Source of the DNA: Bacillota bacterium
GTDB lineage: Bacteria > Bacillota > Sulfobacillia > Sulfobacillales > Sulfobacillaceae
Assembly: GCA_021799435.1 (NCBI GenBank)
Contig: JAJZAN010000005.1
Location: 20,042 to 84,041, forward strand
Direction of reading: 5' to 3'
Length of the DNA stretch: 64,000 nt
Part shown: positions 40,862 through 49,202 of the stretch, piece by piece
How positions within the stretch are numbered: position 1 is the first letter of the stretch
Layout of the letters: each line of letters starts with the position of its first letter
Translations under genes and position numbers: made by a program
The notes under the pieces: model-generated
Database searches by the model: none
What the model was told of the DNA's origin: nothing
Seen by the model: only the letters and a program-made list of their open reading frames with translations

Positions 40862-41373
40862 ACTTAGCGTTGTTGGAGGCGTTGCTGTTTACGCAGTCGG
40901 CGCCCGTGTCCATCCAGCAAGTGGCGCATTGGCTAAGTCTGGACGAAAACTCGGTGGAGGCTGGCCTCCAAGCGTTGGCCGAGCGGTTGGAGGTCCGCGA
41001 GTCGGGTCTGGCCTTGGATTGGGTCGATGGAGGAGTCCGTCTCACCACCCACCCGCGCCTCTATGCGAGCCTGCAGGAGCGTCTGGCCAATCCGGATCCC
41101 GAGCCTCTCTCCCATGCCAGTTGGGAGGTGCTGGCGATCGTCGCATATCGCCAACCCATAACGCGGTTGGAAATCGAGTCCATCCGCCAGACTGGCTCGG
41201 AACGGGCTATCGAGACTTTGGTCAACCGTGACCTAATCGAGGAGGTGGGCCGCAAAGAGGCGCCGGGGCGGCCTATCCTTTACGGCACCACCCGGGGCTT
41301 TTTGCAGCAGTTTGGCCTGTCCTCTCTGGACGCTTTGCCCCAGTTGTCCCAATTGACGGAACCGATGGCATAA
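40858..41373 (+). CDS. scpB: Segregation and condensation protein B
   Basis: LEALLFTQSAPVSIQQVA, LSHASWEVLAIVAYRQPITRLEIESIRQTGSERAIETLVNRDLIEEVGRKEAPGRPILYGTTRGFLQQFGL. Confidence 0.9.
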   Translation: MNLALLEALLFTQSAPVSIQQVAHWLSLDENSVEAGLQALAERLEVRESGLALDWVDGGVRLTTHPRLYASLQERLANPDPEPLSHASWEVLAIVAYRQPITRLEIESIRQTGSERAIETLVNRDLIEEVGRKEAPGRPILYGTTRGFLQQFGLSSLDALPQLSQLTEPMA

Positions 41374-41404
41374 TGTGGCCTCCTTAAGACACCCTAGGAC
41401 GGGG

Positions 41405-42013
41405 GTGTCGGTCGTGTGGTATATCGTCATGGCTGGATTGGCAGTCATAGCGGCTCTGCTTATATGGGCCCTGTTTCAACCGCTGGACCTGTCGTTCAGT
41501 TTGCGCATCGAGGGCCTCGAGATTGAGTTGGCAACGGCGGTGCACTACAGCCGGATCCATCGTTCGCGCACCTGGACGCTGCCCGTGCTGCCTCCCCGAC
41601 AGCACGCGTCCCAAACCCACTTCCACCTTACCCCTGAATTGATTGACGAGGCGCTCTGGGCCTATGAGGTCCTCAACCGCACCATGGATGCTCTCTGGCA
41701 CCGCATGCACATTGAGGCCTTTGATCTGCACGCCACCATCGGATTCGCCGACGCGGCCCGAACCGCCGTGTGGACCGGGCGCGCCACTGACTTGCTAGCT
41801 TGGTGGATCGGCATGCGGATCGCCCCCCGTGCCCATCAAGCTCCGCGATTTTTGGTGGAACCCAATTGGGATCAGGCCGGAGTGAGCGGGAATTTTACCA
41901 GTATAATTCGGGTCCAACCCTCCGATATTATCCTGGCGATTATTCGAGGCCTGACGGGCCCGGCAAAAGGGGGACAAGAGAAGTATGGACACACCGCCCA
42001 ACAACACGCGTAA
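41405..42013 (+). CDS. DUF2953-like membrane-anchored protein (YtfI-like)
   Basis: N-terminal TM then soluble domain; located immediately before the GerW-family gene. Start codon uncertain. Confidence 0.5.
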   Translation: MSVVWYIVMAGLAVIAALLIWALFQPLDLSFSLRIEGLEIELATAVHYSRIHRSRTWTLPVLPPRQHASQTHFHLTPELIDEALWAYEVLNRTMDALWHRMHIEAFDLHATIGFADAARTAVWTGRATDLLAWWIGMRIAPRAHQAPRFLVEPNWDQAGVSGNFTSIIRVQPSDIILAIIRGLTGPAKGGQEKYGHTAQQHA

Positions 42014-42443
42014 CGCTTCCGGACATCCCATTGAAACATTGATGAAGACCGCCATGGAATCCATCAAGGGCATGATTGACGTCAACACCGTAGTGGGGAC
42101 GCCCGTTGAAACCCGCGACGGCGGGACGATCATTCCGGTGTCCCGCGTGTCGTTCGGATTTGCCGCCGGGGGCGGCGAGTATTGGAGTCGAGTGACTGAC
42201 CAAGCCGGCCATCCGTTTGGAGGCGGCAGCGGCGCCGGCGTTACCGTTCATCCCGTGGGGTTTCTGGTGATGCACGGGGACAACGTCCGGCTCCTGTCGG
42301 TGGATAAGGGCGATGTCTGGGAGTCGTTGGCCAACAATATTCCCCAGCTTATCGACCAATTGCAAAACATGTGGAAGGATCGTGAGCATCCGGCCGCACG
42401 CCGCCAAAAGAGCACCATTCTCGACCCCACGACCATGTCGTGA
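41985..42443 (+). CDS. gerW: GerW-family (YtfJ) sporulation protein
   Basis: IKGMIDVNTVVGTPVETRDGGTIIPVSRVSFGFAAGGGEY...GGGSGAGVTVHPVGFLVMHGDNVRLL. Confidence 0.9.
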   Translation: MDTPPNNTRNASGHPIETLMKTAMESIKGMIDVNTVVGTPVETRDGGTIIPVSRVSFGFAAGGGEYWSRVTDQAGHPFGGGSGAGVTVHPVGFLVMHGDNVRLLSVDKGDVWESLANNIPQLIDQLQNMWKDREHPAARRQKSTILDPTTMS

Positions 42444-42458
42444 CGCGGGCCTAGGGAC

Positions 42459-43235
42459 ATGCGGAGCCTGTATAAGGGCATTATCGGGTTCGGGCTGGTC
42501 TCCATTCCGATTCAAGTGTTTAAGGCGATGGAAACCGAGCGGGTCACCACGCACTGGATCCACGAGGCCTGCCACACGCGCATCCAATACCAGAAGTATT
42601 GCCCGGCTTGCGAGCGAGCCTTGGAAGGCGGCGAGGTCGTAACCGGTGCACCATTGCCGGACGGCCGCTTCGTGGTGTTGCCGCCGCCCGAGAAAAGGCC
42701 GGCCGGCGATCACACGATTACCATCTTGAACTTTCCCGAACTCCAGGACATTGACCCGGTATTTTATGAGACGGCATATTGGCTGAAGCCGGGACCGGGG
42801 GGTCAAAAAGCCTACGCGTTGTTGGCACAGGTGATGCGGGACATGGGACGGGTGGCGCTTGCCGAAATGCGGCTGCGAAGCCGTCCGTCTCTGGCCGTGG
42901 TACGGGCATTTAACGACCATACCCTGATGATGCATCGCATGTACTATCCGGAAAGTCTCCGCCAGGAGGGTTCCGGCTTTGGTCCCGTTGACCTGGCCGC
43001 AACTGACAAGGAACTCGAGATGGCCAAGACCTTGGTGCAGCACATGGCTGAACCGTTCGACCCATCTCGCTATCCCAACGAGCATCGGCTGGAGAAGCTT
43101 CGTCAGATTGAAGCCCTCATGCCCACCGCCGAGGCTCCTCGAACCGCTCAGCCGGGACAGGAGGTGCTGGACTTGATGGAAAAGCTGCGAGCGTCGGTAC
43201 AGGCCCAGGCCCAGCACGGCACTGGGACCGACTAG
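42459..43235 (+). CDS. ku: Non-homologous end-joining protein Ku
   Basis: MRSLYKGIIGFGLVSIPIQVFKAMET...IHEACHTRIQYQKYCPACERAL...ILNFPELQDIDPVFYETAYWLKPG. Confidence 0.95.
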   Translation: MRSLYKGIIGFGLVSIPIQVFKAMETERVTTHWIHEACHTRIQYQKYCPACERALEGGEVVTGAPLPDGRFVVLPPPEKRPAGDHTITILNFPELQDIDPVFYETAYWLKPGPGGQKAYALLAQVMRDMGRVALAEMRLRSRPSLAVVRAFNDHTLMMHRMYYPESLRQEGSGFGPVDLAATDKELEMAKTLVQHMAEPFDPSRYPNEHRLEKLRQIEALMPTAEAPRTAQPGQEVLDLMEKLRASVQAQAQHGTGTD

Positions 43236-44087
43236 GTGGAACCCGGGGATTTTGTGTCGCCCATGCTGGCCGTGACAGCCCCTGGGCCGTTCTCGAGGCC
43301 CGGATGGTGGTTCGAGACGAAGTGGGACGGGTACCGCGCCATTATCTCCGTTGGACAACGTTATGCCATCTATTCCCGGCGGGGACACGACCTCATGAGT
43401 TGGTATCCCGAACTGAGGCGGGCTCAGGAAGATCTTCCCGACGATATTGTGCTGGATGCGGAATTGGTGGCCTGGTCTGCGGGCCGCCCTCATTTTAGCG
43501 ACTTGCAACGCCGGTCCGCCCGCCAGTACCTGTTGATGGTGTTCGACTGCTTGTATTCCCAGGGTCGTTGGCTCATGCACGAACCCTTGGCCCGCCGACT
43601 CGAGGAACTGCACCGCCGGGTGTCCACGCGGGGACTCGTCGCGGTCTCGGAAGGTGTGCCTGATAACGGAGCGGCTTTCTTTTCGGCTGTCCGAGACATG
43701 GAATTGGAAGGCGTTATGGCCAAGCGGCTAGATAGTCTGTACCTGCCGGGGCGCCGTTCCCCGGCGTGGCAAAAATTTTTGGCCCTGAAGATGGAATGGT
43801 TTTGGGTGACGGGTCTCATGGAAGCGAGCGATGGCCAATGGTATTGGCTATTAGGGGAACACACCGAGGGCACTCGGCAAGCCGTGGGCAAGGTGCGAGC
43901 TCCGGGAGGTTGGAGCCCGCCCGCGGGGATTGACGGCAACATCCGGTGGGTCCGGCCCTTTTTAGTCGAGGTGGCGTATCGAGAACGAACCCGGGAGGGA
44001 CACTTACGCCATGCGCGAGTCCGACAATGGAAGTCCGGTGACCTGGGAGGCGAGAATCCCCCACCCGGAGCGGATCATATACCCTGA
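43236..44087 (+). CDS. ATP-dependent DNA ligase (LigD ligase-domain type)
   Basis: ETKWDGYRAI (KxDG) , DDIVLDAELVAW, LEGVMAKRLDSLYLPGRRSPAWQKFLALK; start follows the ku stop with no gap. Confidence 0.92.
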   Translation: MEPGDFVSPMLAVTAPGPFSRPGWWFETKWDGYRAIISVGQRYAIYSRRGHDLMSWYPELRRAQEDLPDDIVLDAELVAWSAGRPHFSDLQRRSARQYLLMVFDCLYSQGRWLMHEPLARRLEELHRRVSTRGLVAVSEGVPDNGAAFFSAVRDMELEGVMAKRLDSLYLPGRRSPAWQKFLALKMEWFWVTGLMEASDGQWYWLLGEHTEGTRQAVGKVRAPGGWSPPAGIDGNIRWVRPFLVEVAYRERTREGHLRHARVRQWKSGDLGGENPPPGADHIP

Positions 44088-44874
44088 AGCCCACATTGCC
44101 CGGAGTGAGGTGGTGAGTTACTACGCCGAGGTGGCACCGTATCTTTTGGAACAAGCCCGAGGCAGGGCGCTCACTGTCAAGCGCTGGCCACACGGTATAG
44201 ACGGCCCGATGTTCTACCAGAAACATCCCGCCGACGGCGGCCCCATTGTCGTTACCAGCACGGAAGCGTTGATCACCTGGGTGGGGCAGGGGGCGCTGGA
44301 ATGGCACGCGCCATTGGGACTTGCGGACAGCCCCCTTGTGCACGATTGGGCTATTCTCGACCTGGATCCCAATCCGCCTGCAGGGTGGGCGGAGGTGATA
44401 GAAGTGGGAGGGGTATTTAAGAATTTGCTGGAGCTGATGGACATCCCGTATCTGCTCAAAACCTCAGGACAGCGGGGACTGCACTTTTACGTGGGCATCC
44501 GTCCGCTGCACCACCAGCGTATCCTAGCCATCATGGGCCAATTGGCCGATGTGGTCGAGAGAACGCTGCCCGACGTGGCCACCACGGCACGCCTAAAGCG
44601 GGACCGTGGAGCCCGGGTCTACTTGGATTACCTGCAGAACGGGCACAGCCGAACCACCGTCATGGCCTATAGTCTTCGCGCCACGCCATCCGCCACCGTG
44701 TCCGCTCCCATCACATGGGACCAGCGTGGTCTGGGAACCCATTACTGGACCATCGACCGCGTGCGCGCACAATTGCGCAGTCGGGGCAATTTGTGGATGT
44801 GGCAGCAGCCCCGGGTGGATTTGGAAGTGGCCGTGAGCCGGTTCGGTATGCGAGGAGGTGCGGGAGAACGGTGA
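44011..44874 (+). CDS. LigD-type polymerase/primase domain protein
   Basis: RIIYPEAHIARSEVVSYYAEVAPYLL, WAILDLDPNPPAGW (DxD), KTSGQRGLHFYVGI. Confidence 0.93.
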   Translation: MRESDNGSPVTWEARIPHPERIIYPEAHIARSEVVSYYAEVAPYLLEQARGRALTVKRWPHGIDGPMFYQKHPADGGPIVVTSTEALITWVGQGALEWHAPLGLADSPLVHDWAILDLDPNPPAGWAEVIEVGGVFKNLLELMDIPYLLKTSGQRGLHFYVGIRPLHHQRILAIMGQLADVVERTLPDVATTARLKRDRGARVYLDYLQNGHSRTTVMAYSLRATPSATVSAPITWDQRGLGTHYWTIDRVRAQLRSRGNLWMWQQPRVDLEVAVSRFGMRGGAGER

Positions 44875-46469
44875 ATGTCGAGCCCCAGGCACTAGAAATG
44901 GCCCAACAGTTGATGGCATGGCCCTCTCTGTCTGACAGGGTCGCCCAAGGATTGGATTTGCATGCCTACCAGGTGGAGAGCGTCTTGAAGGTGGTCAACC
45001 AGTTGGAAGGACGCGCCATCTTAGCCGATGAGGTGGGTCTCGGCAAGACCATTGAGGCGGGGTTGGCCGTGGCCGAACTGAAAGCCCGGAGTACAATCCA
45101 AAATGTCCTGATTCTGGTTCCCGCCGGTCTGCAAACCCAATGGGTGGAGGAACTGCGGAACAAATTTGGGTGGACCGCTCAGCGCGGACCGCGGGATCCG
45201 GGTTGGCTTTGGGTGCTGTCGATTGACACAGCCAAGCGGCCCCCGCTGCTCCACCAACTGCAGTATGTGGAATGGGACTTGGTCATTGTCGACGAAGCGC
45301 ACCATCTCAAGAACACGCGGACCCAAAATTATCAGTTGGTCGAGGGCCTCAAGTGCCGCCACCTGCTGCTGCTGACCGCCACTCCGATGGAAAACCAACT
45401 GACCGAGCTCTATGCTCTGGTCAACTTGGTGCGTCCCGGCCTGTTTGGACCTTATCTGCGGTTTTACCGACAATTTATCTTGGATAAGCGAACCCCTAAG
45501 AATGCCGCCGAGTTACGTCATTTGTTGAGCCAAGTCATGGTGCGCAACCAGCGCCAAGAGGTCGGCATCGAGTTTCCGGAGCGCGAGGTCACATTGGTGC
45601 CGCTGCGGCTGGGAGGACCCGAGCGGGCCCTCTACGATGAAATTGCGGGCGCACTGAAAACCGAGTACCGCCACCGCGTGGGGGCCGACCAAACGGTGCT
45701 GCCTCTATTAATCCTGCAGCGCGAGCTCTGCTCCTCGCCGCGCGCCTTGGTGCCCACCTTGAGAAATGCCACCTGGGTTGGTCCGCATCTGAACGAGTTG
45801 GTAGCCTTGGCCGAATCCTTGGGCGTGACTGAAAAAATGCGGGCGGTTCTGGAACTGGCCCGTCATCTGCGGGAACGCATGCTAATCTTTACGGAGTACC
45901 GAGGAACCCAAGAGGCGTTGGTCGAGTTTTTGAAAGAGCAGGGATTCGAAGCCGAATCGTTTCACGGCGGGCTTCGCACTAAAGACCGAGACCAACTGGT
46001 GGAGTGGTTCCGCGAGAAAAACCGCATCTTGGTATCCACTGAGGCGGGAGGTCAGGGCATCAACTTGCAGTTCTGCCATGTGGTGGTGAACTTTGACCTG
46101 CCTTGGAATCCCATGCGGATTGAGCAGCGCATTGGCCGTGTGCACCGCATTGGCCAGACGCGCACGGTAGAAATCTACAATCTGTTCGCCGTAGACACCG
46201 TCGAGGAGGACATCCTCAGGCTGTTGCACGAAAAGATCGACCTGTTCCGCACCGTTATTGGCGAGTTGGACGTGATTCTCCGCCATATTGAACGCCGTGG
46301 CAGTCTCGAAAAGCGTCTAATCGATATCTTCTTCTGGGAGGATGATCGCGACAGTGTGGTAACTCGCTTGGACCAACTAGGCAACGAGTTCTTGGCCGCG
46401 CGGCGCCGGCTTAGCTGGCCCCATGCGATGGGTGGTGAAGAGCCAGGGAGTGGTCAATCCTCGATCTAG
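44871..46469 (+). CDS. SNF2/RapA-like superfamily II helicase
   Basis: AILADEVGLGKTIEAGL, VIVDEAHHLKN, LLLTATPMEN, STEAGGQGINLQF, QRIGRVHRIGQTRTVEIYNLFAVDTVEE; GTGA overlap with the polymerase gene. Confidence 0.93.
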   Translation: MNVEPQALEMAQQLMAWPSLSDRVAQGLDLHAYQVESVLKVVNQLEGRAILADEVGLGKTIEAGLAVAELKARSTIQNVLILVPAGLQTQWVEELRNKFGWTAQRGPRDPGWLWVLSIDTAKRPPLLHQLQYVEWDLVIVDEAHHLKNTRTQNYQLVEGLKCRHLLLLTATPMENQLTELYALVNLVRPGLFGPYLRFYRQFILDKRTPKNAAELRHLLSQVMVRNQRQEVGIEFPEREVTLVPLRLGGPERALYDEIAGALKTEYRHRVGADQTVLPLLILQRELCSSPRALVPTLRNATWVGPHLNELVALAESLGVTEKMRAVLELARHLRERMLIFTEYRGTQEALVEFLKEQGFEAESFHGGLRTKDRDQLVEWFREKNRILVSTEAGGQGINLQFCHVVVNFDLPWNPMRIEQRIGRVHRIGQTRTVEIYNLFAVDTVEEDILRLLHEKIDLFRTVIGELDVILRHIERRGSLEKRLIDIFFWEDDRDSVVTRLDQLGNEFLAARRRLSWPHAMGGEEPGSGQSSI

Positions 46470-46519: not shown

Positions 46520-47182
46520 ATGAGCCAATTTAGTACGCGTGACCGCCGCACTCTACGGGAGATGTTGCATCCACTGCCGCGTCCAGTCGAAGTCTGGGCC
46601 TTCGCCGGACCGGACAGTCCCACCGACGCCACCAACTGGCTGTACGAACTGGCCGAAATCACAGCAGGTCGGATCGGCGTCACCGTCTTCTCCGACGCAG
46701 CGGCCCTGGCTTCGACCATGGGAGTGGTCGCGCGACCTTCCTTCCGCGTGGTGGGTGCCGGCGGAGAAGTCGCGCCGCTCGACATTGTGGGGATTCCTAC
46801 AGGCTATCAATTTGGGGCGTTTGTGCAGCTCGTCATGGCACTCGCCAAGAACAAGAGCCAGCTGCCCCATAACCGCAGCAGTGCCGTGAAGAACGTGCCG
46901 CAAGACACCGTCATGGAAATTTGGGTGACACCAACCTGCCCGCACTCCCCTCAACTGGTCCGTCTGGCCGAGGATTACGCGTTGGCCAATCCGGCCCGTC
47001 TGTTCGTGCGCGTGATTGACGCCATCCAGTATGCCGAGATGGTGCCGGAAGGTGTGGAGGCCGTGCCTCATCTGCGCCTTTTTCAGGACGGTGAACTGGT
47101 CGGGGAGCGGACCGGCATGACGCCCGCCGGTGACCTGTGGCGGATGATTCAGCGGGGACGCAAGGGGGATGGCAAACAATGA
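46520..47182 (+). CDS. PDO/glutaredoxin-like double-thioredoxin-fold protein with degenerate active sites
   Basis: MEIWVTPTCPHSPQLVRLAEDYALANPARLFVRVIDAIQYAEMVPEGVEAVPHLRLFQDGELVGERTGM; first domain lacks CxxC. Confidence 0.7.
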   Translation: MSQFSTRDRRTLREMLHPLPRPVEVWAFAGPDSPTDATNWLYELAEITAGRIGVTVFSDAAALASTMGVVARPSFRVVGAGGEVAPLDIVGIPTGYQFGAFVQLVMALAKNKSQLPHNRSSAVKNVPQDTVMEIWVTPTCPHSPQLVRLAEDYALANPARLFVRVIDAIQYAEMVPEGVEAVPHLRLFQDGELVGERTGMTPAGDLWRMIQRGRKGDGKQ

Positions 47183-48066: not shown

Positions 48067-48669
48067 GTGGTTAACGTGGTCTGGCTGGTCCTGATTGTGG
48101 GCGGCATTGTGATATCGGGGCTGCACCACACGATGTTGCCGGTTACCGAGGCCATCGTCACTGGGACTGAGAAGGCCGTGGAAGTGGCATTCGGGTTTAT
48201 CGGCATTATGGCGTTGTGGCTGGGCGTGGCGCGCATTGCAGAAGAAAGCGGATTAATGCGCGGATTCTCGAAATTGCTCGCGCCGATCGTGTCCCGTCTG
48301 TTCCCGGGCATTCCCGAAGACCACCCGGCTATGGGAAACATGGTGATGAACATGGCCGCGAACATCCTTGGCATGGGCAGTGCTGCGACCCCGTTCGGTC
48401 TCAAGGCTATGGAAGAACTGCAGAAGCTGAATGATGTCAAAGACCGGGCCTCGAACAACATGATTACGTTTTTAGCCATCAACACGGCCTCCATGACGTT
48501 GGTGCCCGCTACTGTAGTGGCTCTGCGGGTGGCTGCCGGGTCCAAAAACCCCACCGTGATTGTGGGCCCCACGATTATTGCCACGTGCTTTTCCATGCTG
48601 GTGGCTATCATCGTCGACCGGATATTTCGCCACCTGTCCTCCCGAGCTGCCGATGGGGACCAGCGCTAG
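48067..48669 (+). CDS. spmA: Spore maturation protein A
   Basis: ALWLGVARIAEESGLMRGFSKLLAPIVSRLFPGIPEDHPAMGNMVMNMAANILGMGSAATPFGLKAMEELQ. Confidence 0.93.
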   Translation: MVNVVWLVLIVGGIVISGLHHTMLPVTEAIVTGTEKAVEVAFGFIGIMALWLGVARIAEESGLMRGFSKLLAPIVSRLFPGIPEDHPAMGNMVMNMAANILGMGSAATPFGLKAMEELQKLNDVKDRASNNMITFLAINTASMTLVPATVVALRVAAGSKNPTVIVGPTIIATCFSMLVAIIVDRIFRHLSSRAADGDQR

Positions 48670-49202
48670 TGGTATAGCCAATGGGACAGCACAATCGCCG
48701 CCACAAATCCGGCTAAGTCTCCGATGAGCGCCACAGTCAGCGCGTAGCGGGTCTTGCGAACAGCGACTGATCCAAAGTAGAGAGTAATCACGTAGAAGGT
48801 GGTGTCGGTACTGCCCTGCAAGGTGGAGGCCAACTTGCCTACAAAGGAGTCCGCGCCGGCATGCTGCAGGATGCCCGTGGTAATGCCCAGGGCAGCGCCC
48901 CCTGAGAGGGGCCGCACCAGAATGAGCGGCACGACCGGTGCTGGCACACCAACATAGGATAAGGGCTTGGCCAGGAAGTTAATGACCGCGTCCAGCGCGC
49001 CCGACGCCTGAAAGATGTTCAACGCGACCAGAATGCCAACCAGGAACGGGATCATCCGCACGGCCATTTTAAAGCCTTCCTCGGCACCTTCCACAAAGAC
49101 ATCATAAATTTTGACGCCGCGGATCCATCCGTACAATGGAATCACGCCGATTAAAAACGGGATTGCCCAGACGGACACGGTATCAATAACGTGGTTCAGC
49201 AT
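48666..49202 (-). CDS. spmB: Spore maturation protein B
   Basis: IPFLIGVIPLYGWIRGVKIYDVFVEGAEEGFKMAVRMIPFLVGILVAL...VRPLSGGAALGITTGILQHAGADSFVGKLASTLQGSTDTTFYVITLYFGSVAVRKTRYAL. Confidence 0.93.
   Translation of the reverse strand: MLNHVIDTVSVWAIPFLIGVIPLYGWIRGVKIYDVFVEGAEEGFKMAVRMIPFLVGILVALNIFQASGALDAVINFLAKPLSYVGVPAPVVPLILVRPLSGGAALGITTGILQHAGADSFVGKLASTLQGSTDTTFYVITLYFGSVAVRKTRYALTVALIGDLAGFVAAIVLSHWLYH

Follow-up and report, generated by a model that had tools for sequence, protein, structure and literature searches.

In Bacillus subtilis, the genes for non-homologous end joining (NHEJ), yqhH and ytfJ are found at separate loci. The B. subtilis NHEJ genes ykoU and ykoV belong to the forespore sigma-G/SpoVT regulon (PMC3656841), which agrees with what a first, sequence-only reading of the DNA described here had stated about them. 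For yqhH, PMC4703394 gives transcription by sigma-F and a match in a transposon sequencing screen for delayed sporulation; the gene was among eight with null mutants that were re-tested, of which seven, not necessarily including yqhH, were delayed. In B. thuringiensis, YqhH hydrolyzes ATP and unwinds DNA as a helicase, and knocking it out makes the bacterium sensitive to UV (PMC10054049). YqhH (HepA) is also listed among the translocases reported to interact with RNA polymerase (PMC7385302). By analyzing a stretch of 64,000 nucleotides (the window) from a Sulfobacillaceae genome (GCA_021799435.1, contig JAJZAN010000005.1), we found what B. subtilis keeps apart, i.e. NHEJ genes and a yqhH-like gene that are both reported to be forespore-expressed there, united in one operon behind the sporulation gene gerW. 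The SNF2 helicase of this gerW-ku locus, together with its counterparts in the class, is called HEL in the following.

We consider it reasonably probable that this operon serves genome maintenance in the forespore, with the NHEJ set and the YqhH-like SNF2 motor as separable cargoes behind gerW, a reading that draws on the observed gene order and its variants, promoter sites, co-loss with sporulation and purifying selection. The features of the locus are as follows.

41368..41396, + strand: putative forespore (sigma-G-like) promoter, GCATA-N17-CACCCTA, at the scpB/ytfI junction, with one mismatch to the B. subtilis-type consensus.
41375..42013, + strand: ytfI-like open reading frame (ORF), the presumed first gene of the operon, named from its position and kept before gerW in the family.
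41985..42443, + strand: gerW (ytfJ), GerW family sporulation protein (TIGR02874 equivalog, 165 bits against a cut-off of 116).
42459..43235, + strand: ku, 258 aa (TIGR02772 equivalog, 208 bits against a cut-off of 150; PF02735).
43236..44087, + strand: stand-alone LigD-type ATP-dependent ligase (lig), 283 aa (PF01068, 97 bits, above cut-off).
44011..44874, + strand: stand-alone LigD-type primase-polymerase (pol), 287 aa (PF21686, 206 bits, above cut-off).
44871..46469, + strand: SNF2 motor HEL, 532 aa, YqhH-like (PF00176 and PF00271 above cut-off; phylogeny, structure model and PDB fold search).
46520-47182: protein-disulfide-oxidoreductase/thioredoxin-like gene, between HEL and panC.

The sequence-only reading had described ku, ligase, polymerase and a complete SNF2 motor as one tight run starting 15 bp after gerW, and both the coordinates and the junctions hold: the ligase GTG abuts the ku stop, lig and pol overlap by 77 nt, and the HEL GTG start overlaps the pol stop (GTGA). 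It had also placed the run upstream of panC-spmA, which is right as to position, but the thioredoxin-like gene intervenes before panC. Ku, the ligase domain (PF01068) and the polymerase (Prim-Pol) are each present in a single copy in this genome. Since the order ku-lig-pol-HEL recurs in dozens of relatives, it exceeds what chance would give.

Linkage was assessed in 61 genomes (the source genome and 60 relatives) and in the whole class (154 genomes), where order, family and class are kinship labels supplied by the search tool and HEL was called at E ≤ 1e-128, with the addition of one contig-end fragment (G030). On the same strand and 1.8-2.6 kb apart, ku and HEL were found in 36 of the 61 genomes. 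Class-wide, HEL occurs in 67 genomes, 47 of which have ku 1.2-3.0 kb upstream; the same order, split by contig ends, in G004, G037 and G143 raises this to 50. In G033, pol immediately precedes HEL at the end of a contig, and the contigs of G092 and G030 are too short for the order to be judged. The junction between HEL and pol is tight, mostly overlapping or abutting. No paper on a bacterial Ku-SNF2 operon was found in the collection of papers that was searched.

By the neighborhood check, the linkage noted in the sequence-only reading is deeply conserved, but HEL also follows gerW with no ku at the locus in 14 genomes, half of which carry Ku on another contig while Ku was not found in the other half. 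Wherever the upstream contig is long enough, HEL is situated downstream of gerW, either directly or after the NHEJ block. In family f33, it comes directly after gerW, with an overlap of 14-38 nt in eight out of nine genomes, and before a panC-like gene; ku-lig-pol is found on a contig other than that of gerW-HEL in seven genomes of this family. The genomes in which Ku was not found are G012, G020, G057, G097, G101, G114 and G116, in all of which HEL follows gerW. None of the seven has PF01068, and the three that were tested for PF21686 (G012, G020 and G057) lack it too. Some of them are incomplete drafts (80-99%), and the gerW-HEL stretch is continuous in each. Between gerW and HEL of G012, G020 and G057, no remnants of ku, lig or pol that beat a reversed-sequence control were found. 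HEL is intact and under strong purifying selection in the Ku-less genomes, with a ratio of non-synonymous to synonymous substitution rates (dN/dS) of 0.087 for the NHEJ-less pair G012/G020 and of 0.04-0.10 in the other computable pairs. The reverse arrangement, gerW-ku-lig-pol without HEL, is found in e.g. G041, G042, G044, G085 and G107, and about half of the Ku-bearing genomes lack HEL. HEL thus exists without NHEJ and NHEJ without HEL, and neither depends on the other.

Sporulation is the factor common to Ku and HEL. With SpoVAD (PF07451) as class-wide spore marker, and with counts limited to genomes of 80% completeness or more, 122 out of 131 SpoVAD-positive genomes carry Ku and none of 14 SpoVAD-negative ones does, the corresponding numbers for HEL being 62 and zero. 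From this class-wide co-loss of Ku and HEL with sporulation, we predict that NHEJ serves spores in the class. Spore formers with Ku are not enriched in HEL, which is found in 55 of the 122 genomes with Ku and in seven of the nine without. Seven of the Ku-negative genomes were identified by exclusion. About half of the spore formers lack HEL, and it is consequently not essential for sporulation.

Forespore-type promoter sites were sought with consensus patterns for sigma-F and sigma-G, at most one mismatch being allowed, and with shuffled sequences as controls. The patterns are those of B. subtilis. Such sites precede ytfI in 20 out of 27 genomes of the order (0.8 in the shuffled controls) and gerW in 22 out of 37 representatives, or 19 out of 27 families (shuffled 0.6), while twelve other gene families gave 3 out of 224. 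A putative forespore-type promoter upstream of the operon is thereby recognized, on sequence criteria, both in the window and in its relatives. The other gene-preceding sites on the + strand of the window are those of the dacF-spoIIA-sigF operon, the spoVA operon and one before 49349. Sporulation promoters of Clostridioides difficile are reported to fit the B. subtilis consensus well (PMC3789829). These sites, together with the class-wide tie between NHEJ and sporulation, support the spore setting that the first reading had given to the operon. The possibility that ku, lig, pol or HEL has a promoter of its own was rejected, as no forespore-type site above background was found for any of them and the sigma-70-type matches before these genes are weak, slightly exceeding the shuffles (5 vs 2.3).

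Ku and the polymerase bear the signatures expected of NHEJ proteins. Ku scores above the TIGR02772 cut-off as a homologue of the bacterial NHEJ protein, and the polymerase, with its DxD (LDLDP) and SGxxGxH motifs kept, is of the LigD type. The best PDB match of the ligase is the ligase domain of Mycobacterium tuberculosis LigD, and its KWDG motif is present; the C-terminal domain is divergent, with a PF04679 score under the cut-off, and motif V reads WQKFL in place of WxKxK. A motif V without the second basic residue (WxKF[LVI] and similar) is found in all 36 genomes of the order that were read (within G001-G041); in the rest of the class, 25 of the 28 ligases that could be read have WxKx[KR]. 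In families f39 and f40 (loci L095, L124, L125, L126 and L127), ku-pol-HEL form a run with no intervening ligase. A different contig carries the ligase in G117, G118 and G119, and no ligase was found in G112 or G113. In the relocated NHEJ locus of f33 (L096, L097 and L114), the ligase gene separates ku from pol and is read from the opposite strand.

HEL carries both SNF2_N (PF00176) and Helicase_C (PF00271) domains, which places it in the SNF2 family. Its classical motifs are intact (DEVGLGKT, VDEAH and NPMRIEQRIGRVHRIGQ), and the core motif residues are invariant in 20 aligned members. The AlphaFold model shows a two-lobed SNF2 motor with a mean predicted local distance difference test score (pLDDT) of 83.5, and RapA, Mot1 and SsoRad54 are the top PDB matches by sequence and fold. 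The protein is nearly motor only. Among well-known proteins, those of the YqhH group are its nearest relatives. Compared with a Bacillus YqhH-type protein, taken as such from the position of its gene beside yqhG, sinR and tasA, it is 42% identical over 501 columns (532 vs 559 aa); with this protein as query, HEL is the best match in its own genome (E 3.6e-119 vs 1.2e-32 for the next), in a search made in one direction only. A rooted tree with twelve outgroup rows resolves three clades, namely HEL (96/99), YqhH (100/99) and HEL2-like (100/99). An earlier tree with two distant outgroup rows was rooted inside HEL and has been replaced by this one. HEL2 itself (L098-L103) is a second SNF2 family, longer (660-840 aa), 41-46% identical, and sporadically distributed away from gerW, with relatives in many phyla. 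For HEL of genus g11 (L112, L148 and L151), the search reported an in-frame TAG; the ORFs end normally at 524 aa, and the TAG is probably due to the alignment overrunning the stop.

Three other explanations of the locus were weighed. The first, proposed in the sequence-only reading, is that the helicase is an accessory factor dedicated to NHEJ; it would clear or remodel DNA ends bound by Ku. In its favor are the tight pol junction and the presence of ku upstream in 47 of the 67 HEL genomes (50 when contig splits are counted); the mycobacterial UvrD1, a Ku-dependent helicase cited in PMC3656841, would be a precedent. This we now hold to be unlikely, as gerW-HEL is kept under purifying selection where ku-lig-pol has moved elsewhere (seven f33 genomes) or where no Ku was found (seven), 67 of the 122 Ku-bearing spore formers do without HEL, and neither Ku, ligase nor polymerase was recognized in the neighborhood of 80 homologues from named genomes, covered to a distance of 6 kb or, at contig ends, less. 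Similarly improbable is a RapA-like factor recycling stalled RNA polymerase, in the forespore or vegetatively, with an indirect link to repair. Both the sequence search and the fold search place RapA structures near the top, and the listing of YqhH (HepA) among RNA polymerase-interacting translocases (PMC7385302) points the same way, but HEL lacks the N-terminal domains of RapA, its motor starting about 30 residues in, and the core-only SsoRad54 scores as well as RapA in the sequence search. That the adjacency is mere housekeeping, i.e. a conserved chromosomal neighborhood with no shared regulation or function, appears very improbable. The cluster does include genes that are not spore specific (scpA, scpB, lysA and panC), and the order is conserved along the whole stretch; against this stand the small gaps and overlaps within the run, the specificity of forespore-type sites to gerW/ytfI, and the absence of Ku and HEL from those SpoVAD-less relatives that are 80% complete or better.

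The forespore operon with two separable cargoes has evidence to contend with as well. The promoter site of the window itself carries a mismatch, and no forespore-type site was recognized in family f33 or in the f45 genomes G139-G142. The counts of Ku and HEL against SpoVAD are raw and ignore kinship, although SpoVAD loss spans about eight lineages as counted by family and genus labels. Half or so of the spore formers are without HEL. In the rooted tree, YqhH groups with the HEL2-like clade and not with HEL (92/85), so that one-to-one orthology of HEL and YqhH is not established by these sequences. Furthermore, we infer forespore expression in the source organism, and the substrate and role of the motor.

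The best reading is that the SNF2 motor acts in the spore programme and not as an obligate NHEJ factor, with a mode of action that we infer as follows. A sigma-F/G-type promoter before ytfI-gerW would drive gerW and both cargoes, one being the NHEJ set (ku, ligase and polymerase) and the other a relative of Bacillus YqhH, a minimal SNF2 motor for double-strand DNA. Proteins of the NHEJ set would be loaded into the spore, with its single chromosome, and join breaks at germination and outgrowth. The motor, spending ATP on moving along DNA, may displace RNA polymerase and spore-packing proteins from the forespore chromosome or slide them along it, and such clearance could allow timely spore maturation and access to lesions. 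It may aid end joining indirectly, Ku not being required. A bolder version, possible yet doubtful at present, is that NHEJ in this class is dedicated to sporulation, its forespore operon including an SNF2 remodeller that clears RNA polymerase and DNA-packing proteins from the packed spore chromosome with or without Ku, which would parallel, in bacteria, the remodelling of chromatin at breaks. Genomes with the motor but minus NHEJ, and the reverse, constitute a natural experiment on what the SNF2 motors of the YqhH group, so far poorly understood, do.

Some observations concern the surroundings of these genes. The true start of the ytfI-like ORF is probably at about 41411-41414, 3' of the promoter site, and its product has no Pfam or NCBIfam matches. 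A 557-aa open frame on the minus strand (41940-43613), opposite gerW-ku-lig, is probably a shadow ORF driven by the GC content. Downstream, an spmB-like gene (48666-49202, minus strand) is convergent with spmA in the window and in the members of the order that were read, while in other members of the class that were read the two genes share one orientation.

Among known systems, DISARM DrmD and other defense-related SNF2 helicases are the best-scoring NCBIfam and PADLOC matches of HEL. Unlike DrmD, HEL is a syntenic core gene outside defense clusters, and it reaches 277 bits against a curated cut-off of 610; a defense role was rejected, the NCBIfam scores being far under the curated cut-offs and the PADLOC matches reflecting the shared motor core. 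SsoRad54 of Sulfolobus (1z63), the best PDB sequence match, is like HEL a stand-alone SNF2 core of about 500 aa, but it is archaeal, 24% identical in the fold search and has no spore or NHEJ context. E. coli RapA, first in the fold search, shares the SNF2 motor core, but the N-terminal RNA polymerase-binding domains that precede its motor are missing from HEL, which at 187 bits stays below the 576 bits required by the RapA equivalog. Bacillus YqhH (HepA) shares size, sequence and, in B. subtilis, a link to sporulation, but its gene adjoins yqhG-sinR-tasA and not gerW/ku, and the HEL proteins of the class form a clade of their own. Lastly, ykoUV of B. subtilis (LigD and Ku) resembles the locus in combining Ku with a LigD-type ligase/polymerase in a sporulating host, under forespore control in B. 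subtilis (PMC3656841), but here the ligase and polymerase are separate genes, situated in the gerW operon and followed by an SNF2 motor.

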